This document shows, piece after piece, positions 1 to 13,087 of a stretch of 40,568 bases of DNA; position 1 is the stretch's first letter; the number at the start of each line of letters is the position of its first letter. Position numbers and translations under genes: made by a program. The stretch covers positions 1 through 40,568 of the IMG/VR virus record IMGVR_UViG_3300035670_000524, one strand, 5' to 3'. Source of the DNA: a virus. The notes below the pieces were generated by a model. That model saw only the letters and a program-made list of their open reading frames with translations. It did not search any database and was not told the DNA's origin.

Positions 1-981
1 GGAATAATCGAGACCTTTTCCGCGTGAAGTATCTACAACTATGGCATAATTGCGCCCTTGTACTGGTTGCTGATAGACTTTGATGCCATTTTCTGACAAA
101 TGCATCGGCTTCACGAACGCAAGAGACTTGAGAGCAGCCGCTGAAAGCAAAGTTCCAGCTGATCCCATGAATTCGCATTCCATTTCTTGAAGGAATTTCT
201 CCTCACCGAGCACTCTGCGTTGTTCATCAGCCCATTTTTGATCTCGACCAGGCACCTGACGCCAGTTTGCTTCAATATGTTTAAATCCATTCTGACCTTC
301 AACAGCTTCTGTCCACATTCTATAATAGTGATTCATACCATTCGGTGTTGATGAGATCAAAATCTTAGAAGTTGTACCAGAAGAAATGGTTGGATAAACA
401 GAAGTGAAGAATTCATCAGCAATATTACTTGGGACGAAGGCAAACTCGTCGAGATACAGTAACGAGATAGAATAACCACGAATCGCGCTTGATGCTGTTG
501 AAGTTGCCATCACGCGACAGTTATTTTCAAGTTCAATATCACCTTTATTCCATGTGCGCACGCCTTGTTGTAGCCACAATGGTAGTGACTCATATGCAAT
601 TTTAATTCGATTTAAAATTTCGCGTGCGGTTGGTGCCTTATTAGCAAGAATGGCTACAAATTTATCTTCGTTGAATAGTATGTACCAAAGAATATAGCCG
701 ACAACCATCGTGGTCTTACCGACCTGACGACCAGCCTTTACAATTACGCGACGATTATCATTAATGTCTGTAACTGCTTGACGTTGAAATGGATACAAAC
801 TAATTTGAACGAAACCTTTGTCGAGAGTAATAATCTTAACATAGTTTTCGATAAAATAAATTGGATCTTGCGAGCATTTATAATACTCTCGCACTTGTTC
901 TTCAGTCAACTGAAGAACCATATTAACTCGTTTTAAATTTGGATTGCCGAGATAATGTTTAAGTTTAGTTGGCAGATTCAT
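1..981 (-). CDS. gp17: Large terminase subunit gp17 (partial, C-terminus outside the window)
   Basis: The packaging motor ATPase/nuclease, which docks at the portal, pumps DNA into the prohead and cuts the concatemer. I translated 327 residues from the ATG at 979-981 down to base 1; the reading frame continues past the window edge. The ATPase motifs are present in order: Walker A AGRQVGKTT (residues 83-91), Walker B LLYLDE (174-179) and the coupling motif SSTPNG (210-215). The nuclease domain begins near residue 311, where IVVDTSRG carries D317, the likely first metal-binding aspartate of the RNase H-like fold; the rest is missing. The start overlaps the gp16 stop by 17 bases, the usual T4 16/17 coupling. 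No intron or homing-endonuclease insertion is seen in this part. Identity is certain. Confidence 0.97.
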   Translation of the reverse strand, partial: MNLPTKLKHYLGNPNLKRVNMVLQLTEEQVREYYKCSQDPIYFIENYVKIITLDKGFVQISLYPFQRQAVTDINDNRRVIVKAGRQVGKTTMVVGYILWYILFNEDKFVAILANKAPTAREILNRIKIAYESLPLWLQQGVRTWNKGDIELENNCRVMATSTASSAIRGYSISLLYLDEFAFVPSNIADEFFTSVYPTISSGTTSKILISSTPNGMNHYYRMWTEAVEGQNGFKHIEANWRQVPGRDQKWADEQRRVLGEEKFLQEMECEFMGSAGTLLSAAALKSLAFVKPMHLSENGIKVYQQPVQGRNYAIVVDTSRGKGLDYS

Positions 982-1378
982 TCTTTAATTGTTTCAATAA
1001 TTCAGCAGTAGAACCAACAAATACAGCCTTATCTACTGTAATATTTTGTTGCGTTGGTTGCTCAGGACCATTTAATTCTTTTTGTTGCCGTTGTAAAATC
1101 ATTAATTTCTCTGTAACATCAGAGAGATTCTTGATCATATTGGCTGCTACTTCGTATGCTCTTGGGTGCTGACTTTCTTTAGCCACTTCCAAAATGCCTT
1201 CAAGAGCTTCGTTGCCTTTCTCGATAAGATTGTAATAATTAGAACGAGAATAGTCAGCGTCAGGATTAACAGCTGAGTCGTTTGATCCATGAATAGTAAC
1301 ACTTCTATTTTCCTCTTTTATCGCAGGAACATAATCAGTGTTTAGTATTTCGGCGAGATTTTTGTCTACGTCGCTCAT
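965..1378 (-). CDS. gp16: Small terminase subunit gp16
   Basis: Small DNA-recognition/regulatory subunit of the packaging motor, expected to form a ring and stimulate gp17. It has 137 residues, somewhat shorter than T4 gp16 (164). The central part (about residues 50-103) reads as two long helices rich in E, K, L and Q, fitting the oligomerising coiled-coil core of the family, flanked by polar, probably disordered ends. Assignment rests mainly on position: it lies directly upstream of gp17 and downstream of gp15, and overlaps both (17 bases with gp17; ATGA overlap with the gp15 stop). I did not see a diagnostic sequence motif. Confidence 0.85.
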   Translation of the reverse strand: MSDVDKNLAEILNTDYVPAIKEENRSVTIHGSNDSAVNPDADYSRSNYYNLIEKGNEALEGILEVAKESQHPRAYEVAANMIKNLSDVTEKLMILQRQQKELNGPEQPTQQNITVDKAVFVGSTAELLKQLKNESAN

Positions 1379-2391
1379 GTTATATTAGGAAATTCCTCAA
1401 TTTCAGTATCAAATCCAAATGCCGTTTGAACATTAGCAGTATTTGGTAATGGTGTAACTGTTATATGAGATAATTGTGTAGCAGAGTTTGGTGTAATAGA
1501 TGCAACGTTATACGATGCATTTGTAACTGCGCCAGTAATATACTTGCCAACTTGAATTGTTCCCGTCTTATCAGTTACAATTAATACGTTCGCATTACTG
1601 TCCCATGATTGTACGAAGGCAGAAGCATTTGTATCGATTGGATTTCTTCCTTGAAACACAAGTTCACCAAGTTTATATTCTCCGCTACCTGCGCCGAGTG
1701 TTATGTCATATTCGTTAGCAGTAGAAACTTGATCGTTGAATACGTTAGCAGTTGACGTTGTAATAATCTTAGCATCAGTATTCACACGACCATAGAGATA
1801 TCCCTTCATCGTGAATGTTAATGTCCAATTTAATGTGCGAAGAGTCATTCCCGTTCCTGTTTCTTCTGACGGATCAAAATTAACAGTGTTTAATACAATA
1901 GGAACGTCGACAGGAAGATTTGTATTTTCGCCAAGAAGATCTACCGTTACAGTATAATCTGGTGTAAAATATGGAAGAATTTGCTCGATAATTTGTGTGC
2001 CGTCTTCAGTATTACGCACAAAAATGTTTAAAGTAAAATCGAAATTATATGGAGCATATGTAACTGCTCGAATATCTTGACCAGCAGCATTCGGTTTAGC
2101 GAATAATGTATTGAATGAACTCATCTTACGAACAGGATCGTAAGAAATAGCAGTCATCTCAAACGTCATTCTTGGTAATGTAATCTGAACTTCTTTATCA
2201 AGACCTGGATCTTGTACAAGACGTTGATAGAATTTTTCCTTAGACATATAAGACAAAGGAACAGTAATTCTTTCAATTTCTGTTGTAGAATTTTTAGCGT
2301 AACGAACAAGTCTTAAATTGTTGAATAGAGAACCGAATCCAACAACCATCTTGCGTGTAATGCGATGATAAAAATGTGTGCCTGATAGCAT
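1375..2391 (-). CDS. gp15: Tail terminator / sheath stabiliser gp15
   Basis: Hexameric cap that ends the tail tube and sheath and joins the tail to the neck. It has 338 residues against 272 in T4. The N-terminus (HFYHRITRK, then FGSLFNNLRLVRY) and the later segment ITLPRMTFEMTAI are typical of gp15 of cyanophage-like myoviruses. The extra length is at the C-terminus: from about residue 235 there is a module with GELVFQG followed by a beta-rich stretch, resembling modules in gp14, gp8, gp7 and the 1072-residue protein (see findings). The stop overlaps the gp16 start (ATGA). It shares the gp13-gp17 transcription unit. Confidence is high from sequence and gene order. Confidence 0.93.
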   Translation of the reverse strand: MLSGTHFYHRITRKMVVGFGSLFNNLRLVRYAKNSTTEIERITVPLSYMSKEKFYQRLVQDPGLDKEVQITLPRMTFEMTAISYDPVRKMSSFNTLFAKPNAAGQDIRAVTYAPYNFDFTLNIFVRNTEDGTQIIEQILPYFTPDYTVTVDLLGENTNLPVDVPIVLNTVNFDPSEETGTGMTLRTLNWTLTFTMKGYLYGRVNTDAKIITTSTANVFNDQVSTANEYDITLGAGSGEYKLGELVFQGRNPIDTNASAFVQSWDSNANVLIVTDKTGTIQVGKYITGAVTNASYNVASITPNSATQLSHITVTPLPNTANVQTAFGFDTEIEEFPNIT

Positions 2392-2393
2392 GA

Positions 2394-3269
2394 TTAGGTC
2401 TCGTTAGCGCTGCCGAATGGATTTGTTTCTGACCAATCGAGAATATTATCAGCCTCTGTTTCAATTCTTACGTTGTCATCAAACTCATCATTTGCATCTT
2501 CCATAGTATCGCCAGATGTTACAGTCCACTGTGCGTTACTTGATACGCCTTTAACAACTGAGTTTGCGCCAAATATTCCTTTGATGTTTCTCAATGTAAG
2601 TTGTCGAGTTGGTTTATCCCAATCAGAAACGTATGCTTTTGCTGTTGCTGTTGCGAGTGTTGTTCCAACATAAACAATTTCTTGATCATGAAACGTTCCA
2701 GTTCCACCAGCATTCATTGTATACTTGACGCCAAATGCACGACGATCATTAATATTATCAATATCAGTGACTCCTGTACGAATTAATTCGCCATTGTATC
2801 TGAAGTTTTCAACATACAATCCGTACATATATGGAGCAACTTTACCTGCCTGGAAAAAGTTTTTTTCTTCTTCAACTCTTTTAATTTCAAATATTTTCTT
2901 TTGAACAGGCATATAGATAAGATCGCCTTCCTTCGGCGTGTTTCTTATCGCGTTAGGAATGTATCGCTCAAATGTTCGACGAGCAACCGCGACTCTTGCT
3001 TCTTTTTGAATCTCAAGACCAAACTTACTGAAGAACTCTTGATTGCCTTCGTAATCGCTGAATGTCTCGAGATACATATCAATCTTATATGCTTTTGTAA
3101 ATGACTTCACAGGATCATCACCAAACAACTCATCAATAGTTGATTGCGATTCGCGAGGAAGATAGTAAATGTCAATTCCGTGATTTTGGATTGATTCAAT
3201 AATCATATCCTCGATGAGGAACTGCTCGCGCGTTGCGCCTTGATTATTAAAATATACTGAAGTTCCCAT
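2394..3269 (-). CDS. gp14: Neck protein gp14
   Basis: Neck component that with gp13 closes the packaged head and receives the tail. It has 291 residues (T4: 256). The N-terminal half (MGTSVYFNN, EQFLIEDMIIESI, GIDIYYLPRE, then the ELFGDDP motif) is the characteristic gp14 opening. At about residues 190-250 an insertion with EIVYVGTTLATATAKAYV matches a module in gp15 and several wedge proteins. The C-terminus is acidic and ends with a W-S-E-T-N-P-F-G segment typical of the family. It is 2 bases from gp15 and 3 from gp13, so translation is probably coupled; only a weak GGATAA lies upstream of its ATG. Confidence 0.93.
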   Translation of the reverse strand: MGTSVYFNNQGATREQFLIEDMIIESIQNHGIDIYYLPRESQSTIDELFGDDPVKSFTKAYKIDMYLETFSDYEGNQEFFSKFGLEIQKEARVAVARRTFERYIPNAIRNTPKEGDLIYMPVQKKIFEIKRVEEEKNFFQAGKVAPYMYGLYVENFRYNGELIRTGVTDIDNINDRRAFGVKYTMNAGGTGTFHDQEIVYVGTTLATATAKAYVSDWDKPTRQLTLRNIKGIFGANSVVKGVSSNAQWTVTSGDTMEDANDEFDDNVRIETEADNILDWSETNPFGSANET

Positions 3270-3272
3270 TTA

Positions 3273-4034
3273 TTATCCAACTTGCATTGATGGTGGTAAC
3301 TCATACACATCACGCAAATCTGCACTTAATTTTTCAATCTCAAGAACAGCATCGTTATAGATTTTTTCTCCATTTACAACAAGACCACCTGGCAAAGTAT
3401 AATTTGAATACTTCGTTATATTACTGCCCCATTGCAATTTAATAAGTGCAGTTGCGTATGCTTTTAACCAAGAATCGTTCCATATTTTTGTGTATTCTAC
3501 CACGGAATCAATTTTTCGTGCTTGGAATACAATATAGTCGCCAGGATTTAAACGACCATTCCAATCCATTTGAAGATAAACTCTGTTAGTTTTTTTATTG
3601 TAAGTAAATGGTATTTCGCCAGTTACGATTAGATCAAGCATGGCAAGATGCTCTCTTGCAATTACATAATAAGTGTATGAAGAAGATAATAGGTTATAGA
3701 AATCGTTTAAACGAATTTGATAGTTAATGTCAAAAATGTTAAATCCGTTTGTTCCCTGCGAACTGATGCTGCTTCCTGTGATTGGTAAAACGCGATCAAT
3801 ACCAACAATTGAGTTTGCAACGGTTACATAACCATTTGCTTGATCGCCAGCAGTCACCTGAGTCGCGAGATAAATCTCCTCGGTGCCATCATAGTGATAA
3901 TCTCTAAATTTAATGAGTGCATCGTCAATGCGATCTTCTATTTGATCCTCGTCGACGTTGATATCAATGACTGGAAAACCGAGTTTGCGAAGGCAATAAT
4001 CTTTAAATTCTTCGCGAGTTTGTGGAACTGCCAT
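3273..4034 (-). CDS. gp13: Neck protein gp13
   Basis: Head-closure neck protein, partner of gp14. It has 253 residues (T4: 309). The N-terminal block (EEFKDYCLRKLGFPVIDINV followed by an acidic D-E-D-Q-I-E-D-R-I-D-D-A helix and KFRDYHYDG) is the family signature. Later segments KIWNDSWLKAYATALIKLQW and the helical C-terminus ending DLRDVYELPPSMQ also fit. It is the first gene of the neck/packaging operon: a perfect late-promoter box lies 24 bases upstream of the ATG and an AGAGG ribosome site sits 6-7 bases before it. Confidence is high. Confidence 0.94.
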   Translation of the reverse strand: MAVPQTREEFKDYCLRKLGFPVIDINVDEDQIEDRIDDALIKFRDYHYDGTEEIYLATQVTAGDQANGYVTVANSIVGIDRVLPITGSSISSQGTNGFNIFDINYQIRLNDFYNLLSSSYTYYVIAREHLAMLDLIVTGEIPFTYNKKTNRVYLQMDWNGRLNPGDYIVFQARKIDSVVEYTKIWNDSWLKAYATALIKLQWGSNITKYSNYTLPGGLVVNGEKIYNDAVLEIEKLSADLRDVYELPPSMQVG

Positions 4035-4079: not shown

Positions 4080-4679
4080 TTATCTAAATTTAGGACCTGC
4101 AATCCAAACAACAAGACTTCTGCGTGTGCCTCGTGTCACTGGCGTAACTCTGTGAATAATGTATCCTGGAAAAGTTACAATAAGCCCTTTTCGTTTTTCC
4201 ATTTTTATTGGTTCTGCACCAGTAAATATTTCTAAATCACCGCCATCATAATCAGAAGGATCTGACAACTGTAAAACTAACGAAAGTTTTCTTGGTGCTC
4301 CATTGTTTGGACCTTTATCCATATGCCATGTATAATGGTCTCCTTCTGGTCGATATACTGTATATTGGAAATCTTCTACAAATCCATACAAATTATAATC
4401 GAAAAATTGACCATTTAATTGTCTGGCAATATACGCAAGTTTGTCATAAAGCCAGTTAGTCTCATTGTTTAAATTAATCCAGGACACTTCTGATTTTCGA
4501 ATTTTAGAAATATCTTGCCCATCTTGTTGCCCACCAACTTTAGCCTCTGTTTTACAATATTTTTCTCCAATATCAATAATTGATTTAATATCTTGATCGG
4601 TAAATCCATTTTCCCAAGTTGCGAATATTTCTTCACGAGTTGACAAATCTGGACATGGCGCAAATTGATATGCTGACAT
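4080..4679 (-). CDS. 2-oxoglutarate/Fe(II)-dependent oxygenase (prolyl-hydroxylase-like, PKHD type)
   Basis: Predicted non-haem iron dioxygenase that hydroxylates a substrate while decarboxylating 2-oxoglutarate. With the ATG at 4677-4679 it has 199 residues. The iron triad is visible: H119 and D121 in TWHMDKG, then H176 in PGYIIHRVTPV, followed by the 2OG-binding Arg in TRRSLVVW (186-187). The N-terminal half holds a substrate-fold helix and the LYGFVEDFQYTVY strand. I prefer this ATG over an upstream TTG because GGGAGAGA lies just before it and TGATG overlaps the stop of the preceding gene, implying coupling. Such enzymes are frequent in T4-like cyanophages but their substrates are mostly unknown. 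The collagen-like gene two positions upstream is an attractive substrate (inference only). Confidence 0.92.
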   Translation of the reverse strand: MSAYQFAPCPDLSTREEIFATWENGFTDQDIKSIIDIGEKYCKTEAKVGGQQDGQDISKIRKSEVSWINLNNETNWLYDKLAYIARQLNGQFFDYNLYGFVEDFQYTVYRPEGDHYTWHMDKGPNNGAPRKLSLVLQLSDPSDYDGGDLEIFTGAEPIKMEKRKGLIVTFPGYIIHRVTPVTRGTRRSLVVWIAGPKFR

Positions 4680-5407
4680 CACTTTCTCTCCCAAATGTAA
4701 TCACGATATATGCTCTCATGTGCTGCTCTTCTATTTCGTGTTAGTCGAAGTTTTTCTTTATAATCATCATCAAATTTATTTACAATACCATCTTTAATAA
4801 TGGCGTCTCTTCGAATAGGAATAGCCTGAACAAGCGGTGTTCCCGCCTCAATTATACCTACAAAATTTGGTATATTAAATTGAAATGGGAAATTAATAAA
4901 CTCATTATAACCATCACAATCAACAAGACCAGAAAACACTGTAAATCTATGTTCTGGTCTGTTCAATGGTGGCACAAACAAAACAGAATATCCTTTTGGA
5001 ACTCGAATACCCCACCAATTTAAAAATTTTAATGGTGGCAATTTTTCTCTTGGATTTGGCACTTCTTTTGTTGTAATTTGATTTTTGTTGTGATTTTCGA
5101 CTATGGATTTATAAAACATAGAGCGATACTCTACGCCGCTCGCATCATGATTAGTTTTAAATTGAACATCAGCAGCAAGAGGAATGATCCATCCAACACA
5201 CATAGCATCAAGAAATGGTGGGCAACGCTTGAGCGTACCATTCTCGATGGTGTTTTGTTTTTCCATTTTTTGAGGAAGAGCCTTATACCAATCTGGCATA
5301 AGTTTTCTGGCAGGATATGGTTTTGGAATTGCGCCAAAATCTTCTTCTTCGCAGAGAAATTCAATCTCAGGCGTCTTAATCGCCGATTTTAATCTATCAA
5401 AAAACAT
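4679..5407 (-). CDS. Conserved phage protein of unknown function, DUF6065-like
   Basis: 242 residues, cytoplasmic in appearance, with no signal peptide or membrane segment. I do not know its function. From memory the pattern resembles DUF6065: an aromatic N-terminal motif (KLMPDWYKALP), a C-P-P-F-L-D-A-M segment followed by GWIIPLAADV, a central WWGIRVPKGYSVLFVPPLNRP, and late FNIPN...AGTPLVQAIPIRRDA; this needs a profile search. The basic C-terminus (RLTRNRRAAHESIYRDYIWERK-type) is helical. It is the first gene of a two-gene unit with the oxygenase: a late-promoter box lies 23 bases upstream, GGAG is placed 6-9 bases before the ATG, and its TGA overlaps the oxygenase ATG. That tight coupling suggests the two act together, perhaps as substrate-handling partner and enzyme (inference). 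Confidence 0.75.
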   Translation of the reverse strand: MFFDRLKSAIKTPEIEFLCEEEDFGAIPKPYPARKLMPDWYKALPQKMEKQNTIENGTLKRCPPFLDAMCVGWIIPLAADVQFKTNHDASGVEYRSMFYKSIVENHNKNQITTKEVPNPREKLPPLKFLNWWGIRVPKGYSVLFVPPLNRPEHRFTVFSGLVDCDGYNEFINFPFQFNIPNFVGIIEAGTPLVQAIPIRRDAIIKDGIVNKFDDDYKEKLRLTRNRRAAHESIYRDYIWERK

Positions 5408-5429
5408 AATAACTCCAAAACGTATAATA

Positions 5430-5437
5430 TATTTATC
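5430..5437 (-). promoter_or_regulatory. Late promoter for the DUF6065-like/oxygenase pair
   Basis: Minus strand GATAAATA, one base from the T4 late consensus, in the 30-base gap directly after the stop codon of the collagen-like gene and 23 bases upstream of the 5407 start codon. Its placement would let the oxygenase pair be made late, together with virion proteins. Confidence 0.6.
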
Positions 5438-8401
5438 TTACTGATTTGGCCAAGATATTGTGATAGATCCTGTTGCTGATCCTGTTCCTACAGTAACATT
5501 TGTTGACGCTCCAACTGAAACGGTTTTTTGCATGTTAAATGTTGATTGCGTTTGAACTGCGGCAGAACCTGGTTGACCAGCACCACCAGGAGTTGCGCCT
5601 GTTCCAGCAGCACCATTAGCACCTGTATTTCCTTTTGCTCCTGCTGCACCTGTGCCACCAGCATTTCCTGGTTGTCCTGCTTGACCTGGATTTCCTGCTG
5701 TAGCACCTGTACCTGCTGCACCTGTATTTCCAGCAGCACCTTTTGCGCCTGCAGTTCCAGCATTTCCTGGTTGTCCTGATGTTGCACCAGTTCCTGCTGC
5801 TCCTGCTGTTCCAGCAGCGCCATTAGCACCTGCTGTTCCTGGTTGACCTGCTTGACCTGATGTTGCGCCTGTACCAGCAGCACCATTGGCGCCTGTATTT
5901 CCTTTTGCTCCAGCAGCACCAGCAGTTCCAGCATTTCCTGGCTGTCCTGCTGATCCAGAAGTTGCTCCAGTTCCTGCAGCACCATTTGCGCCTGTGTTGC
6001 CATTAGCACCTTTTGCTCCAGCATTTCCTGGTTGACCACCAGCACCTGGTTGCCCTCCAGTAGCGCCAGTTCCTGCTGTACCTGCAGAACCTGCAGTTCC
6101 TGATACACCAGCAGTTCCTGGATTTCCAGGTTGACCTGAAGGTTGAGTAGCGGATACTGGATAAGTTCCTTGTCCAGCATAACCGAAACCACCAGCCTTA
6201 CCACCTGGAAATCCATCTGGCGCTCCACCAGCATTACCTCCAGGTCCGCCAGGATATCCATTATATGCTGCAACTCCACGAAATCTTTGACCATAATATG
6301 GATCAGTAAAAAGATAAGCCTGAGCACCCGCTCCTCCACCGCCACCGCCGCCGCCACCGCCAGCGCCACCTCGCGTTCCTGCAGTGCCTGCATTTCCTGG
6401 ATTTCCTGCTTTTCCGCCCGCGCCACCAGCACCACCAGCACCACCTGTGCCATTTGTTCCTGGTTGACCGCTATTTCCTATGGATCCTGGTTGACCAGCG
6501 TTTCCTGCTGCACCACCTGGACCGCCAGCACCACCTGTGCCTCCAACACCATTAGTTCCAGGTTGTCCAGTGTTTCCTATTGATCCTGGTTGACCTGAGT
6601 TACCAGCAGCACCTCCTGGACCACCAGCACCACCAGCACCATTGGTTCCAGGTTGACCAGCGTTTCCTGGTTGACCTGAATTTCCAGCAAGTCCACCAGC
6701 ACCACCTGTACCTGCAGCACCATTCGTTCCTGGTTGTCCAGTGTTTCCTATTGCGCCTGGATTTCCTGCTGATCCGCCAGTTCCACCTGGTCCACCTGCA
6801 CCACCTGTACCTGCTGCGCCATTGGTTCCTGGTTGACCGCTATTACCTTGTGCTCCTGGTTGACCAGCGTTTCCTGCTGCACCTGCTGCACCACCCGCAC
6901 CAGCAGCGCCTCCTGGAGCAGTTACTGTACTGAATGCGACTGATGCACCTGCGACAAATGTTGTGGCAGTTCCTGATGCGCCATCAGCACCTTTATTTCC
7001 TGCAGCACCAGCAGTTCCTGGATTTCCTGGTTGACCAGTTCCACCAGCCGTTGCTCCTGTTCCAGCAGCACCATCGGCACCTTTATTACCTGCAGCACCA
7101 GCAGTTCCTGCTGCTCCAGCAGTTCCAGGTTGACCTGCTCCACCAGTTCCAGCACCAGTTCCTGCTGCTCCTGCTGTTCCAGCAGCACCATTTGCTCCTG
7201 TGCCACCAGTTCCTCCTGGTTGACCTGCCGTAGCACCTGTTCCCGCTGCACCTGTATTTCCTTTTGCTCCAGCAGCACCAGCAGTTCCAGCATTTCCTGG
7301 TTGTCCTGTTTGACCTGATGTTGCGCCTGTTCCTGCGGCGCCATTCGCACCTGTATTTCCTTTTGCTCCTGCTGCACCTGTGCCACCAGCATTTCCTGGC
7401 TGACCTGCGCCACCTGTGCCTGCTCCTGATCCAGCAGCACCTGTGTTTCCTGCAGCACCTGGATTACCATTTGCTCCTGCGTTTCCTGTTCCACCTGCTA
7501 ATCCGTAAGTCCAATGACCACCAACACCACCTTGTCCACCCTGTCCTCCAGCAGCATTTGATCCTGGAGAAGCGCCCAATCCCCTCCCTCCAGGTCCACC
7601 ACGTTGAGCTGGGCTGTTTGGTCCTACAGTACCATTTCCTTTAGTTCCTTCATTTCCATTCCCGCCTGTAGTTCCTGCAGGACCTGGCCATTTGCCACCA
7701 TTGCCACCAAGACCTGCATTTCCACCACCACCGCCAGCAGCACCTTGACCTGCAGTTCCACCTGTGCCATTTGTGCCTGAATTTCCTGGTTGACCAGTGT
7801 TTCCTATTGCTCCAGAATTGCCAGCATTTCCTCCAGCACCACCAGCACCACCAGTTCCGCCAGCACCATTGGTTCCTGGTTGTCCAGTGTTACCTATGGA
7901 TCCTGGCTGACCCGAGTTACCAGCAGCACCACCTGGACCACCAGCGCCACCTGTGCCTCCAGCACCATTGGTTCCTGGCTGCCCAGTGTTTCCTATTGCA
8001 CCTGGATTTCCTGCTGATCCACCAGCACCTGCAGTACCAGCTGCACCGTTAGTTCCTGGTTGACCAGCATTGCCTGGCTGACCGCTGTTACCAGCATTTC
8101 CTCCAGCACCACCAGCACCACCAGCACCATTGGTACCTGAGTTTCCTGGTTGCCCTGTATTACCTTGTGCTCCAGGTTGTCCTGCGTTTCCTGCAACACC
8201 AGCAGTACCGCCAGCACCACCTGTGCCAGCAGCACCGTTTGTGCCTGCGTTTCCTGGTTGACCTGAATTGCCACTACCACCAGTTGCTGTGATTGTAACT
8301 TTACGCACGCCAAATGGAATGACCCATGTCGTGTTTGAGCTGAACGTAACGCTTCCCGCCTTTACGCGAGTCTTACGAAGTGTGGTAGCCGCTAATGGCA
8401 T
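5438..8401 (-). CDS. Collagen-like Gly-X-Y repeat protein (putative fibre/adhesin)
   Basis: 987 residues, most of them Gly-X-Y triplets. Layout: residues 1-41, a small beta domain (SVTFSSNTTWVIPFGVRKVTI) like the one opening the glycine-rich protein at 16266-17147; 43-222, collagen block A1; 223-305, Gly-rich non-triplet insert with aromatic residues; 306-478, block B1; 479-497, a linker; 498-678, block A2; 679-755, second insert with a polyglycine run and YYGQRFRG; 756-946, block B2; 947-987, a beta-rich C-terminal cap. A1-insert-B1 and A2-insert-B2 are clearly duplicated. Pro occurs mostly just before Gly, in about 30 GQPG motifs. Blocks A and B could form collagen triple helices or polyglycine-II bundles. 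Likely an extended virion fibre or decoration; attachment site unknown. No clear ribosome site precedes the ATG, so it may be coupled to the gene ending at 8415. Confidence 0.88.
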   Translation of the reverse strand: MPLAATTLRKTRVKAGSVTFSSNTTWVIPFGVRKVTITATGGSGNSGQPGNAGTNGAAGTGGAGGTAGVAGNAGQPGAQGNTGQPGNSGTNGAGGAGGAGGNAGNSGQPGNAGQPGTNGAAGTAGAGGSAGNPGAIGNTGQPGTNGAGGTGGAGGPGGAAGNSGQPGSIGNTGQPGTNGAGGTGGAGGAGGNAGNSGAIGNTGQPGNSGTNGTGGTAGQGAAGGGGGNAGLGGNGGKWPGPAGTTGGNGNEGTKGNGTVGPNSPAQRGGPGGRGLGASPGSNAAGGQGGQGGVGGHWTYGLAGGTGNAGANGNPGAAGNTGAAGSGAGTGGAGQPGNAGGTGAAGAKGNTGANGAAGTGATSGQTGQPGNAGTAGAAGAKGNTGAAGTGATAGQPGGTGGTGANGAAGTAGAAGTGAGTGGAGQPGTAGAAGTAGAAGNKGADGAAGTGATAGGTGQPGNPGTAGAAGNKGADGASGTATTFVAGASVAFSTVTAPGGAAGAGGAAGAAGNAGQPGAQGNSGQPGTNGAAGTGGAGGPGGTGGSAGNPGAIGNTGQPGTNGAAGTGGAGGLAGNSGQPGNAGQPGTNGAGGAGGPGGAAGNSGQPGSIGNTGQPGTNGVGGTGGAGGPGGAAGNAGQPGSIGNSGQPGTNGTGGAGGAGGAGGKAGNPGNAGTAGTRGGAGGGGGGGGGGAGAQAYLFTDPYYGQRFRGVAAYNGYPGGPGGNAGGAPDGFPGGKAGGFGYAGQGTYPVSATQPSGQPGNPGTAGVSGTAGSAGTAGTGATGGQPGAGGQPGNAGAKGANGNTGANGAAGTGATSGSAGQPGNAGTAGAAGAKGNTGANGAAGTGATSGQAGQPGTAGANGAAGTAGAAGTGATSGQPGNAGTAGAKGAAGNTGAAGTGATAGNPGQAGQPGNAGGTGAAGAKGNTGANGAAGTGATPGGAGQPGSAAVQTQSTFNMQKTVSVGASTNVTVGTGSATGSITISWPNQ
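5564..6910 (-). repeat. Collagen super-repeat unit 2 (A2-insert-B2)
   Basis: Codes for residues 498-946 and repeats unit 1. Shared phrases include NAGQPGAQGN, AGNPGAIGNTGQPG and NSGQPGSIGNTGQPG in the A blocks and GAAGAKGNTGANGAAGTGAT in the B blocks. The glycine-rich inserts (7487-7735 and 6137-6367) are equal in position but differ in sequence. Confidence 0.8.
6968..8275 (-). repeat. Collagen super-repeat unit 1 (A1-insert-B1)
   Basis: Codes for residues 43-478 of the collagen-like protein: a GQPG/GTNG-rich block, an interrupted glycine-rich insert, then a block dominated by GAAG, AKGNTG and GTGATSG phrases. The same order recurs at 5564-6910. Confidence 0.8.
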
Positions 8402-8414
8402 TCAATAACACCGA

Positions 8415-8765
8415 TTACGATGGACGGACGACTTTGTCAAGATTAGCAATTAATTGCGAATTTTGAAGTTCTTCTAAACCAACTGCAACGTTGATTCCAT
8501 TTGTGTCGTCATCCATAACAATTTTCCAGTGAACGATTGGAAAACGTGTGATTTCTCTTGTTGAGAAATCAGCACCATTTGCAGTAAAATTCCATGTGCT
8601 CAATGGAGCAAATGTATTTGCAGCATCATCTTCGTTATTCCAATTTAAATGATTAATTGGAACATTATTGTCTTTTAATAGTTTTACAGCTTCGTAACAT
8701 TCTGCAGCATTTACGCCAAGAGCAGTATACACAGTAACATCACGAATTCGTATTAGATTAGCCAT
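8415..8765 (-). CDS. Hypothetical protein, fibre region
   Basis: 116 residues of unknown function. It opens with a strand (IRIRDVTVYTALG) followed by a helix (NAAECYEAVKLLKDNNVP) and N-H-L-N-W-N-N-E-D-D; the middle has FPIVHWKIVMDDD and it closes with a helix (GLEELQNSQLIANLD). The beta-alpha start recalls thioredoxin-like folds, but there is no CxxC, so I do not assign one. A strong GGAGGAT ribosome site lies about 9 bases before the ATG. It sits between the fibre-tip gene and the collagen-like gene, 13 bases upstream of the latter, with which it is probably co-transcribed. A fibre-assembly helper or capsid-external protein are both possible. Confidence 0.6.
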   Translation of the reverse strand: MANLIRIRDVTVYTALGVNAAECYEAVKLLKDNNVPINHLNWNNEDDAANTFAPLSTWNFTANGADFSTREITRFPIVHWKIVMDDDTNGINVAVGLEELQNSQLIANLDKVVRPS

Positions 8766-8781
8766 TATGAGTTATCCTCCG

Positions 8782-9195
8782 TTATTTTCCTAAATTGGCC
8801 AATGCGTGGGAAGCAAAAAATGTTTCACCACCATCAAACGTCATCAACGTGATCACATCTGCATGATTAGGTTTTGTTGCGAGAACAGCCACTTCACCAT
8901 AAGACCAAAGCACATTCTCAGGAAATACTACCTTTCGAGCACCAAGTGTATCTTGCTTAAGAATAAGAGTGCAAGAATATGATTTATCGGCTTCGGGTAG
9001 ATTATCAAACGCAATATTTATAATATTTTTTCTGAGAGTAATGTGGAAAATATTTGACTTTTTAAGGTCAATAATTTGAAGGTTATCTACAGCATTGATC
9101 TTTGTGATCTCTTCACGGTATGCTTTCAAAATACCTTCAAAAGAATCTCGCTGATTCTTTTTAATTGATACTACATTAGTTTTATCCATACTCAT
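8782..9195 (-). CDS. Free-standing fibre-tip domain protein (paralogue of the C-terminus of the 1292-residue fibre)
   Basis: 137 residues. After about 20 polar N-terminal residues the whole protein aligns with the last ~125 residues of the fibre encoded immediately upstream. Matches include LKAYREEI against LRSYREGI, NIFHITL against NIFDFTL, CTLILKQ against VTLILRQ, VLWSYGEVAVL against VYWSSGEAAVL, and FDGGETFFASHALAN against VDGGSTFFAAHSMAN. This C-terminal domain type (the W-x-x-G-x-A-P/V-x-L and DGG-x-T motifs) is common at the ends of fibres in T4-like aquatic phages. The gene has its own AGAGG site 9 bases before the first of two close ATGs, so it looks like a functional gene, not a fibre fragment. 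It could be an alternative tip, a fibre cap or an assembly factor. Confidence 0.8.
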   Translation of the reverse strand: MSMDKTNVVSIKKNQRDSFEGILKAYREEITKINAVDNLQIIDLKKSNIFHITLRKNIINIAFDNLPEADKSYSCTLILKQDTLGARKVVFPENVLWSYGEVAVLATKPNHADVITLMTFDGGETFFASHALANLGK

Positions 9196-9208: not shown

Positions 9209-12200
9209 TTAACTGTAAGATACATTTGCCATTGAGTGTGCGGCGAAGAATGTCGAACCACCATCAACAGTAATCAAAGAAATAATATCTAATTTATTTG
9301 CAATACCAGACGAAAGAACTGCTGCTTCGCCGCTTGACCAGTAAACTGTATTTGGATAGTTTACCACATTTGCAGCAGTTCCAGGTTGACGAAGAATCAA
9401 TGTTACAGGGAATGCATTACCAGAAGCAGGTGCATTATTGAATGTAATCGCAGCATTGCTATTAGATAATGTAAAGTCAAAGATATTATTTCCTGACAAA
9501 TCTGCAATCACATTCGCTGTTACTGTTCTTGTATTAATTCCTTCACGATAAGATCTGAGTGTGAGCGTTGTTGCCGTACCGCCAGAAGCAACGACAGCAT
9601 TGTTTGCTGTATTGTATGCATTGTTAGCAGTTGTACGAGCAGTATTCGCCTGATCACGTGCAGTGTTTGCTTGACCGTAAGCAGTATTTGCTTGGTCGCG
9701 TGCTGTATTTGCTTGTCCGTATGCGTTTAGTGCATTTGTTGCTGCTGTATTAGCCTGACCATAAGCAGCATTAGCAGTGTCACGAGCAGTATTCGCTTGA
9801 GTGCGAGCAGTGTTTGCCTGGTCTCGAGCAGTATTTGCTTGACCATATGCATTCAACGCAATTGTTTCAGCAGTATTGGCTTCACCATAAGCATCATTAG
9901 CAGTATTGCGGGCTGTATTTGCTTGAGCATATGCGTTTAATGCGTTTGTATTTGCTGTATTTGCTTGAGCATAAGCATTTAATGCATTCGTATTTGCTGT
10001 GTTAGCACCAGCATATGCATCGTTCGCTGTGTTTCTTGCAGTATTTGCTTGATCACGTGCGGTATTTGCTTGATCTCTTGCTGTGTTCGCTTGAGCATAT
10101 ACGATATTAGCGTGAGCATATGCGCCGTTAGCCTGAGCATACGCACCATTCGCAGTATCACGTGCAGTATTGGCTTGATCGCGAGCATTATTTGCCTGAT
10201 CGTACGATGTATTTGCTTGTGTTCGAGCAGTGTTAGCCTGATCACGAGCGGCATTCGCCTGACCATATGAATTTATGGCAATAGTTTCTGCGCTATTTGC
10301 TTCAGCGTATGCATCGTTCGCCGTGTTTCTTGCAGTATTTGCTTGATCTCTGGCACTGTTTGCTTGATTGTATGCGAGTGTAAGATTGGCTTGAGTCGCA
10401 ACTGTATTACCAACAAGCAACAAACTATTTGCATTAATATTTGCTTTGAGTGTTGCGAGTTTTACGTTCGCAAGATCAAGAACATTATTGGCATAAAGGA
10501 TATGATCGTCATAATTTTCAAAGAGATACCAAACTTCATCTTGATTTGCGCGAATCAATCCAGCATGTTGTTGAGTTGGACCATAATGACCCACAAAACC
10601 AATACCAACTGCATTTGTTGTGTTGTTATTTGCAAGAAGAATAATTGGATCATTAACTGTCAAACTTGACGTATTGACTATGGTCTCAGTTCCGTTTACA
10701 AATAGATTACCAGTGATTGTTAAATCGCCAGTAATAGATCCGCCAGTCAAATTAAGTTTTAAATTGGCTTCAGCGTAAGCATTGTTTGCTTGTGTACGTG
10801 CAGTATTTGCCTGATCACGAGCAGAGTTTGCTTGACCATATGCATTGAGTGCATTTGTGTTAGCAGTATTCGCGCCAGCATATGCATCATTGGCGGTTGT
10901 ACGAGCGGTGTTTGCCTGGTCTCGAGCAGTATTTGCCTGATCATAAGCATTTAGTGCATTTGTTTGGGCAGTATTAGCTGCACCATATGCGTCATTAGCA
11001 GTATTTCGAGCAGTATTAGCCTGAGCGTATGCGTCGTTTGCAGTTCCACGTGCAGTATTTGCCTGATCATAAGCAGTATTTGCTTGCGCGTAAACAATAT
11101 TTGCGTGGGCATATGCGCCGTTAGCCTGAGCATATGCTCCGTTGGCTTGGCTGTATGCACCATTCGCAGTATCGCGAGCAGTATTCGCTTGCGCATAAGA
11201 ATCATTCGCAGTTGTTCTGGCTGTATTCGCTTGATCGCGCGCACTATTTGCTTGATCATATGCGCTATTCGCTTGAGCATAAACTATGTTCGCATGAGCG
11301 TAAGCGCCATTGGCTTGTGCATATGCACCATTTGCGGTGTCATAAGCAGAGTTCGCTTGACCATATGCATTGAGTGCATTTGTGTTTGCTGTATTGGCTT
11401 CCGCATAAGCATTTAGAGCGTTGGTGTTAGCAGTATTAGCACCAGCGTAAGCATCATTAGCAGTATCACGTGCAGTGTTGGCTTGAGAATATGCATTGAT
11501 GGCATTAGTATTAGCGGTGTTTGCTTCAGCATATGCGTTTAATGCATTTGTGTTTGCGGTATTGGCTGCGCCATAGGCATCATTAGCAGTTCCACGAGCA
11601 GTGTTTGCTTGATCATAAGCAGCATTGGCTTGATTGTATGCTTCACCGCCGCCAGTTGCAGTTGATGTAAATTCAATATTCGCGTTACCATTTTCATTTG
11701 TAACGCTTACTAAGACAGTTGCTGTGTTAACAAAATTAATCTTTTGAGTTGTAACTGCTGATGCGTTGTTTGCATATACTGTTACTTGTGCATTATTTGC
11801 TGCATTATATGCTGAATTAGCCTGACCATAAGCATCATTTGCAGTTCCACGTGCAGTATTTGCTTGACTATATGCGTCATTAGCCTGTGCATATGCTGTA
11901 TTTGCTTGCCCATAGGCGTCATTGGCTTGATTGTATGCAGTATTCGCTTGAGCATAAGCATTTAATGCATTCGTATTTGCTGTGTTAGCCGCTGAATAAG
12001 AATCGTTAGCAGTATCACGTGCAGTATTTGCTTGAGCATATGCGTTAAGAGCATTTGTATTTGCTGTATTTGCAGCACCATAAGCATCATTGGCTACACC
12101 ATACGCTGAGTTTGCCTGACCATAAGCAGTATTTGCCTGATCCCGAGCACCATTTGCTTGACCATATGCGCTGTTGGCTTGGAAGTATGCTGCGTTGGCT

Positions 12201-13087
12201 TGATTGTATGCAGTGTTCGCCTCAGTATAAGCATTTGTTGCTGTTGTATATGCAGTATTTGCTTCACCATAAGCAGCATTTGCTTGGTCTCTTGCGTTAT
12301 TCGCCTGAGCATATGCGTCTAATGCTGAATCGAATGCATAAAATATATCATCAGCGTCGTTCCATTTCCATTGTTCTGATGTTTCATCCCATTTGAGCGA
12401 TGCATTAGTATTTGCACCACGATTAATAGTAATAAATGCATCAGTGGAAGGTTCGCCAGTTACATTTGAATTAAGAACAATTTCATTATCTTCAACGAAT
12501 AATGTTTCGACGTTTAGAATAGTAGAATTGCCGAGAACTTGAAGATTACCAGTGACAGAGAGATCGCCAGTAATGCTGCCACCTGAAATATTAAGTTTTA
12601 AATTGGCTTCAGCATATGCGTTATTGGCTTGCCCATATGCTGCATTAGCCTGATCATAAGAAGTATTAGCCTGAGCATATACTATATTGGCGTGAAAGTA
12701 GGCTCCATTAGCCTGAGCGTATGCACTGTTCGCTTGAGAATATGCGCCATTGGCTTGAGTATATGCCGCATTAGCCTCGCCATATGCGTTATTTGCTGTA
12801 TCTCTTGCAGTATTGGCTTGGTCATATGCAGCAGAACCAGAAGAAGACGCTGTATTTGCAGTATTATATGCACTATTCGCAGTGTCTCGAGCAGTATTGG
12901 CTTGGTCATATGCTGCGGATCCAGACGATGATGCTGTATTTGCAGCGCCATAAGCGTCATTAGCAGTGTCTCTTGCAGTATTGGCTTGAGCGTATGCTGC
13001 CACATTCGCAGCACCCAGATTAGAAAGAGCGTCAACTGCGTTATTTGCACCAGTGCCGCCTAAAAATATTGATACTATTCTTGTCAT
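9209..13087 (-). CDS. Long tail-fibre protein with Ala/Asn heptad shafts (1292 residues)
   Basis: Predicted elongated, probably trimeric, tail fibre. N-terminal 30 residues (MTRIVSIFLGGTGANNAVDALSNLG split by a GG turn) may be the attachment segment. Shaft blocks of heptads of the form A-Y-x-Q-A-N-x or A-R-D-Q-A-N-T occupy about 31-163, 256-437, 481-776 and 896-1164. They are interrupted by knobs: 164-255 (GGSITGDLSVTGNL then a WDETSEQWKWND segment), a beta module at 435-480, and 777-895 (GGSITGDLTITGNLFVNG, VGIGFVGHYG, EVWYLFEN). Residues 1168-1292 are the tip domain, duplicated as the next gene. The 800-residue fibre has the same knob type at 264-395. A late-promoter box lies about 24 bases upstream of the ATG. 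Host receptor binding is likely but inferred. Confidence 0.85.
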   Translation of the reverse strand: MTRIVSIFLGGTGANNAVDALSNLGAANVAAYAQANTARDTANDAYGAANTASSSGSAAYDQANTARDTANSAYNTANTASSSGSAAYDQANTARDTANNAYGEANAAYTQANGAYSQANSAYAQANGAYFHANIVYAQANTSYDQANAAYGQANNAYAEANLKLNISGGSITGDLSVTGNLQVLGNSTILNVETLFVEDNEIVLNSNVTGEPSTDAFITINRGANTNASLKWDETSEQWKWNDADDIFYAFDSALDAYAQANNARDQANAAYGEANTAYTTATNAYTEANTAYNQANAAYFQANSAYGQANGARDQANTAYGQANSAYGVANDAYGAANTANTNALNAYAQANTARDTANDSYSAANTANTNALNAYAQANTAYNQANDAYGQANTAYAQANDAYSQANTARGTANDAYGQANSAYNAANNAQVTVYANNASAVTTQKINFVNTATVLVSVTNENGNANIEFTSTATGGGEAYNQANAAYDQANTARGTANDAYGAANTANTNALNAYAEANTANTNAINAYSQANTARDTANDAYAGANTANTNALNAYAEANTANTNALNAYGQANSAYDTANGAYAQANGAYAHANIVYAQANSAYDQANSARDQANTARTTANDSYAQANTARDTANGAYSQANGAYAQANGAYAHANIVYAQANTAYDQANTARGTANDAYAQANTARNTANDAYGAANTAQTNALNAYDQANTARDQANTARTTANDAYAGANTANTNALNAYGQANSARDQANTARTQANNAYAEANLKLNLTGGSITGDLTITGNLFVNGTETIVNTSSLTVNDPIILLANNNTTNAVGIGFVGHYGPTQQHAGLIRANQDEVWYLFENYDDHILYANNVLDLANVKLATLKANINANSLLLVGNTVATQANLTLAYNQANSARDQANTARNTANDAYAEANSAETIAINSYGQANAARDQANTARTQANTSYDQANNARDQANTARDTANGAYAQANGAYAHANIVYAQANTARDQANTARDQANTARNTANDAYAGANTANTNALNAYAQANTANTNALNAYAQANTARNTANDAYGEANTAETIALNAYGQANTARDQANTARTQANTARDTANAAYGQANTAATNALNAYGQANTARDQANTAYGQANTARDQANTARTTANNAYNTANNAVVASGGTATTLTLRSYREGINTRTVTANVIADLSGNNIFDFTLSNSNAAITFNNAPASGNAFPVTLILRQPGTAANVVNYPNTVYWSSGEAAVLSSGIANKLDIISLITVDGGSTFFAAHSMANVSYS
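9596..12997 (-). repeat. Heptad-coding imperfect 21-base repeats in the 1292-residue fibre
   Basis: Four arrays of imperfect 21-base units, each coding one heptad with Ala at positions 1 and 5 (e.g. AYGQANT, ARDTAND, ANTNALN). The Ala/Ala 4-3 spacing fits a tightly packed small-residue coiled coil. The phrase HANIVYAQAN recurs at residues 133-142, 598-607, 661-670 and 992-1001. Confidence 0.8.

Follow-up and report, generated by a model that had tools for sequence, protein, structure and literature searches.

Few genes without an explained role are as common in marine phages as those of 2-oxoglutarate (2OG) oxygenases, which tend to be annotated as auxiliary metabolism or DNA repair; to our knowledge, chemical self-modification of tail proteins has so far been shown for no phage. 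The cyanophage enzymes were earlier proposed to act in DNA repair (PMC2984593) or, from their location, in host recognition (PMC3909814), and no substrate pairing of the phrog_61 oxygenases is reported in these two papers or in PMC12774648. Mimivirus encodes a Gly-X-Y protein together with its 2OG hydroxylases (L230 and others; PMC9546862). The prolyl 4-hydroxylase (P4H) of Bacillus anthracis favours Pro at position Y on PPG peptides, and typical bacterial collagens carry Pro at X and Thr at Y (PMC8968730). Here we analyzed a 40.6-kb IMG/VR virus record (IMGVR_UViG_3300035670_000524; the window, meaning the whole stretch of DNA), in which a 2OG-Fe(II) oxygenase gene (OXY) and a DUF6065-like gene (DUF) follow the gene of a long Gly-X-Y protein (COL). 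As an earlier note on this sequence had described, the 987-residue collagen-like gene lies directly upstream of the oxygenase and its partner, on the same (minus) strand:

4080..4679, minus strand: OXY, 2OG-Fe(II) oxygenase with a prolyl hydroxylase domain (PHD)/P4H fold, 199 amino acids (aa) (PF13640, invariant H/D/H/R, Foldseek)
4679..5407, minus strand: DUF, DUF6065-like protein (phrog_7084), 242 aa (PHROGs, Pfam, AlphaFold2 (AF2) model)
5438..8401, minus strand: COL, 987-aa Gly-X-Y protein, candidate substrate (Pfam, repeat counts)

We consider it fairly probable that OXY is a PHD/P4H-type protein hydroxylase dedicated to the adjacent Gly-X-Y tail protein, acting on Pro in [N/S/Q]-Pro-Gly. 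What we show here is the order of the genes, their conservation, the residues of the active site, the fold prediction, the statistical association and the bias in Pro position.

Conservation of the oxygenase and its linkage to Gly-X-Y genes

OXY matched PF13640 at 2.1e-15, above the Pfam cut-off, and its active site, H119-x-D121...H176...R186 (ATG numbering), was invariant in 47 relatives, so that the intact H-x-D...H...R motif noticed earlier is borne out. The gene very probably starts at ATG 4679 (199 aa), because M6-S7 (TTG numbering) is invariant in relatives, a Shine-Dalgarno-like GGGAG precedes this ATG, and the DUF stop overlaps it as TGATG; the alternative start at TTG 4694 was judged unlikely on the same grounds. 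In the AF2 model (predicted local distance difference test, pLDDT, 90.9), OXY adopts a prolyl-hydroxylase-like double-stranded beta-helix, and the best Foldseek matches were PHD2 with a HIF peptide and the Pseudomonas putida P4H with EF-Tu (4iw3), both with E values of about 1e-10 and TM scores of 0.71-0.76.

The earlier note had suggested a survey of related phages for co-occurrence of the oxygenase, DUF6065-like and collagen genes. Starting from DUF and OXY, we retrieved relatives from IMG/VR and collapsed near-identical contigs, which left about 30 distinct loci in which a Gly-X-Y gene precedes DUF and OXY, with either no gene or one to a few genes in between. The OXY proteins of these cassettes form one clade (support 98/91), separate from the enzymes of cyanophage isolates. 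The genes between OXY and gp13 vary freely across loci, and different genes are inserted around the cassette. In L081 and L091, COL lies directly against OXY with no DUF, and in L117 the Gly-X-Y gene is inverted and on the other side. One further copy (L148:9232-11312) was found within a Dehalococcoidia metagenome-assembled chromosome beside runs of N, and is probably a mis-scaffolded phage fragment with the same cassette. Variable cassette borders and duplicated modules (L009, L032) could also be expected if OXY and DUF were relics of a mobile fibre cassette, or were carried along in it neutrally, without any action on the fibre; however, the catalytic residues are invariant in all 47 sequences, no frameshifted copies were noticed, and identities of 45-78% are retained across the clade, and we regard this explanation as highly improbable.

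A second arrangement was found in unrelated phages. The COL N-termini, taken as a mixed set, had too little conservation for a profile search, and a subset was usable; searches with the COL head domain retrieved podovirus-like contigs with a similar protein, 'MPAGTPKV...TFNSPGTFTVPVGV...GNPGN', directly preceded by 2-4 tandem 2OG genes (PF13640, PF13759, PF13532) and with no DUF.

Moreover, loci were retrieved by the fibre alone, using a DNA pattern for GNPGxxGNPG, and compared with those from a matching scan for GPQGPQGPQG collagens. Counting, among the matches listed, proteins with at least 2.5 kb of flank on each side, we found a 2OG oxygenase gene within 3.5 kb of 15/17 small-residue Gly-X-Y proteins and of 3/21 GPQ collagens (Fisher test, P = 8.6e-6), in two sets that differ in phage make-up; a slightly different deduplication of the first scan gave 17/19. 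The conserved gene order, the second arrangement in unrelated phages and this enzyme-blind scan together argue strongly for the functional linkage of enzyme and fibre that the earlier note had put forward from a single locus.

Alternatively, OXY could serve auxiliary metabolism or host takeover, with a host protein or a small molecule as its substrate, and its place beside the tail gene would then reflect a hypervariable host-interaction island to which both belong. In line with this, phrog_61 is classed as moron/auxiliary metabolic, members of the OXY family also occur among the uvsY/uvsW genes, the P. putida P4H acts on EF-Tu (4iw3), and oxygenases are frequent in metaviromic islands (PMC3909814). 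However, the tight adjacency and order are kept across wide divergence and recur, in another order, in unrelated phages, and ordinary collagens in similar islands mostly lack a 2OG gene; this alternative seems improbable to us.

Proline position and the predicted target

The strict Gly-X-Y runs of COL comprise 254 triplets, with Pro at Y in 37 and at X in 5, and the protein contains 40 GXPG sites, 31 of them GQPG; the earlier description, Pro almost exclusively at Y and about 30 GQPG motifs, was thus accurate. The GQPG repeats are partly derived from duplication. The positional bias is more than repeat copying, since relatives with other repeats (GNPG, GSPG) keep it as well. In 70 small-residue Gly-X-Y proteins pooled from the fetched loci, Pro occurred 1389 times at Y and 205 times at X; in the remaining 23 Gly-X-Y proteins, for the most part encoded on those same contigs, the counts were 44 and 633, respectively.

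COL consists of a beta-type N-terminal head (about 45 aa), Gly-X-Y runs with two Gly-rich inserts, and a beta-type C-terminus. It matched PF01391 (collagen) with 86 bits, and its X/Y positions, in 18 runs with breaks, are 78% small and 3% charged. Across cassette proteins, 75-91% of X/Y residues are Gly, Ala, Ser, Thr or Asn, almost without charge. Collagens were the only PDB matches to the COL sequence, a result that is uninformative for such a composition, and no sfAFP- or gp38-like protein was matched. This small-residue, nearly uncharged composition resembles that of the Gly-rich polyproline-II (PPII) bundles in collembolan antifreeze proteins and T-even fibre tips and suggests that a COL-type fibre is such a bundle rather than a collagen triple helix, so that 'collagen' is probably the wrong structure class. 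Stabilisation of a triple helix, the purpose first imagined for the modification, is accordingly unlikely as stated, because the fibre may have another structure.

With regard to the modified residue, Pro appears the likely target. The predicted fold, the Y-Pro bias and a PF11397 gene in sister modules support the prolyl-hydroxylase part of the earlier proposal. The restricted choice of residue in front of Pro also speaks for the main reading: Asn accounts for 70%, Ser for 15%, Gln for 6% and Ala for only 2%, compared with 23% for Ala elsewhere. PHD2 and lysyl hydroxylases bind 2OG through Arg, collagen P4Hs through Lys; in OXY this residue is the invariant Arg186, and the likeness to collagen-type prolyl 4-hydroxylases, with Lys at H+10, does not extend to this position. 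Lys is not a general target, because it is absent from the Gly-X-Y runs of 45/70 small-residue proteins, and lysyl hydroxylation as a general function was rejected on this basis.

The sister modules carry diverged OXY2-DUF2 pairs, which follow Pro-rich, non-Gly-X-Y fibres with a COL-type head (L032, L130, L009) and repeats such as NAPTNGPQNF and TNPPSGGN. In L009 and L032, the pair adjoins a gene of PF11397, to which we assign the GlcNAc-transferase acting on hydroxyproline in Skp1; no other independent hint points as well to Pro as the hydroxylated residue. No PF11397 gene was seen in the window itself, and the link is known from these two sister modules. Both carry a five-gene module (L009:10633-14593, plus strand; L032:15640-20433, minus strand) of Pro-rich fibre, OXY2, DUF2, DUF3 and PF11397 GlcNAc-transferase, which looks like a fibre decoration pathway. 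A PF00685 sulfotransferase gene is also near the module in L032. In another locus (L504:2336-6094, minus strand), DUF6065-like, OXY-like and PF11397-like genes are interleaved, with no protein rich in X-Pro-Gly (XPG) in reach.

It is also conceivable, but rather unlikely in our view, that OXY hydroxylates the same Gly-X-Y protein on Asn at X, or on another residue, and that Pro at Y is purely a matter of PPII structure. Asn makes up at least 5% of the X residues in 67/70 small-residue proteins and 70% of the residues preceding Y-Pro, and the OXY2-linked fibres are Asn-rich as well (NFNAPTNGPQ, TNPPSGGN). Nevertheless, the predicted fold of OXY is nearest to prolyl hydroxylases, PF11397 in the sister modules points to hydroxyproline, and Pro is common to the Gly-X-Y and non-Gly-X-Y candidate substrates.

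Several observations weigh against a dedicated prolyl hydroxylase. These proteins have Asn at X just as universally as Pro at Y, and the preference for Y-Pro could follow from the architecture of PPII bundles instead of marking the action of an enzyme. By sequence, OXY is nearest to PKHD-type PiuC-like structures, not to collagen P4Hs; in the profile ranking of solved structures, PiuC-type PKHD came first, followed by the PBCV-1 and Bacillus (3itq) P4Hs and PHD2. Marine T4-like phages are rich in 2OG genes (S-RIM4 has 7 PF13640 matches in 175 kb), and from this density the uninformed expectation of a 2OG gene within 3.5 kb may there reach as much as about 0.4 by our estimate, which is still well under 15/17. 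Relatives that keep the oxygenase pair without any X-Pro-Gly protein, which the earlier note had named as a counterexample, were not found in the cassette clade, although L001 and L092 retain the cassette with just 5 and 3 XPG sites, respectively. Finally, L006 has an OXY with 56% identity and neither DUF nor an XPG-rich protein in its 53-kb record; it is nested in the cassette OXY clade and looks like a case of loss or relocation.

If OXY is a prolyl hydroxylase, it would act late in infection on exposed Pro in [N/S/Q]-Pro-Gly, before or during folding of the chain, and the hydroxylation would alter the stability or the receptor-contact surface of a Gly-rich PPII fibre or adhesin. Glycosylation of the hydroxyl would probably follow in some of the sister modules, and the DUF6065-like protein would be an accessory that some modules lack. 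In this scheme, the identity of the substrate, Pro as the residue, the timing and the biological effect are what we infer. More broadly, we tentatively suggest, with less confidence than for the window itself, that phages encode dedicated prolyl hydroxylases, accompanied in some modules by hydroxyproline GlcNAc-transferases, and that modification of repeated Pro sites in Gly-rich PPII tail fibres is a widespread and so far undescribed virion-modification system that yields variable, decorated host-contact surfaces.

The DUF6065-like protein, neighbouring genes and cultured phages

DUF matched phrog_7084 at 1.2e-59. The TGATG overlap and the GGGAG sequence fit translational coupling of DUF and OXY, as previously noted. 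Taken alone, the protein of the window supports the name DUF6065 only weakly (PF19541, E = 0.015, 15.2 bits, under the gathering cut-off of 26.6 bits), but a paralogue at L009:12115-12861 clears the cut-off with 30.4 bits. The AF2 model (pLDDT 92.6) showed weak structural similarity to a dUTPase-like beta-clip. Bacterial DUF homologues (Rhizobiales and others) stand alone, which made their context uninformative about function, and in the haloarchaeal viruses HRTV-2 and HF2, DUF is present and no PF13640 gene was found. DUF is thus not a mere subunit of OXY. It is dispensable to the module, and, being absent from several modules, it is not an obligate presenter of the substrate, the role once conjectured for it. 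In two loci of haloarchaeal tailed viruses (L012, L013), a single DUF6065-like gene (39-48% identity) lies close to tail genes, and PF13640 genes are absent.

The window corresponds to the late structural region of a T4-like phage, with genes on the minus strand in the order baseplate and fibre genes, w8782, w8415, COL, DUF, OXY and then gp13 to gp17. The neighbouring features are as follows:

8415..8765, minus strand: w8415, 116-aa protein, function not assigned, conserved cassette neighbour (homologues)
8782..9195, minus strand: w8782, tail-fibre C-terminal-domain protein, conserved neighbour (phrog_9017)
1..4034, minus strand: T4-like neck, tail-completion and packaging genes gp17, gp16, gp15, gp14 and gp13, downstream of the cassette (PHROGs and Pfam)

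In most cassette loci, homologues of w8415 lie upstream of the collagen-like gene (just after it in some), and w8782, which matched phrog_9017 (tail fiber) at 2.5e-16, is also kept. A 1292-aa fibre built of (A/N)TAYDQAN-type repeats (9209-13087) has a C-terminal domain in common with w8782. Among 50,697 annotated phage records, none was closely related to the first 12 kb of the window at the DNA level. A late promoter after the collagen gene had been invoked to place both genes in the same phase; however, no exact TATAAATA was found in the COL-DUF gap, where the nearest sequence is GATAAATA, with one mismatch, and the 3 exact copies in the whole window are at chance level, so that the argument carries no weight.

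Among cultured phages, the exact cassette was not found in INPHARED (searches with DUF, COL and two COL N-terminus queries), and the OXY relatives there were less than 60% identical, the best among the matches listed reaching 32-40%. OXY also occurs next to large fibres in DLP_6 and S-PRM1, but these are mostly of the Pro-at-X type, and both were rejected as cassette phages. A poly-Gly-rich adhesin-like protein is encoded about 1.6 kb from an OXY relative in S-SSM5 (L551:3199-4365), which also has a gene annotated as leprecan-like, and in S-CAM8 (L559:3175-4377); these two cyanophages are possible experimental systems. In the cultured cyanophage S-SCSM1 (L562, 5962-8379), genes for a protein O-fucosyltransferase (PF10250) and a further 2OG oxygenase come after that of an OXY relative.

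Significance and comparison with known systems

Many uncultured aquatic phages pair a prolyl-hydroxylase-like gene with the gene of a long, Gly-/Pro-patterned tail protein, which suggests, from gene content and sequence pattern, that phages may chemically modify their own tail proteins. As this OXY subfamily is tied to one physical class of substrate, the question becomes directly testable. If the proposal is correct, no phage virion protein would have been known to be hydroxylated before, phage Gly-X-Y proteins would fall into an unmodified kind with Pro at X and a modified kind with Pro at Y, and tail structure would depend on oxygen and 2-oxoglutarate.

The cyanophage phrog_61 2OG oxygenases (EGLN3-like) share the Pfam family and fold of OXY (PMC12774648). 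The B. anthracis P4H (3itq) is likewise a prokaryotic 2OG prolyl hydroxylase of the same fold family, but a cellular enzyme, and typical bacterial and phage collagens are the opposite of the COL class, since Pro occupies X in them and Y is taken by Thr or Gln. The small-residue Gly-X-X repeats of collembolan PPII-bundle antifreeze proteins resemble those of the COL class, and their Pro in X-P-G is partly hydroxylated (PMC10235112), a precedent for the proposed modification; at the tip of a phage fibre, the Gly-rich domain of S16 gp38 is a PPII bundle (PMC8409303). For neither has a co-encoded hydroxylase been described, and the phage COL proteins are far longer. In the Skp1 pathway of protists (PMC11570480), the PhyA prolyl hydroxylase is followed by the Gnt1 GlcNAc-transferase, as the PHD-type hydroxylase is accompanied by PF11397 in the sister modules, although a single Pro is modified in Skp1 and the phage fibres are repeated and Pro-rich. 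Mimivirus, like the phages described here, encodes both a Gly-X-Y protein and its 2OG hydroxylases; however, it is a eukaryotic virus with a true collagen and with prolyl and lysyl hydroxylases, the lysyl hydroxylase being fused to a glycosyltransferase, whereas the present system is a phage tail cassette with a DUF6065-like gene, and Lys is often absent from the Gly-X-Y runs, position Y included (45/70 small-residue proteins).

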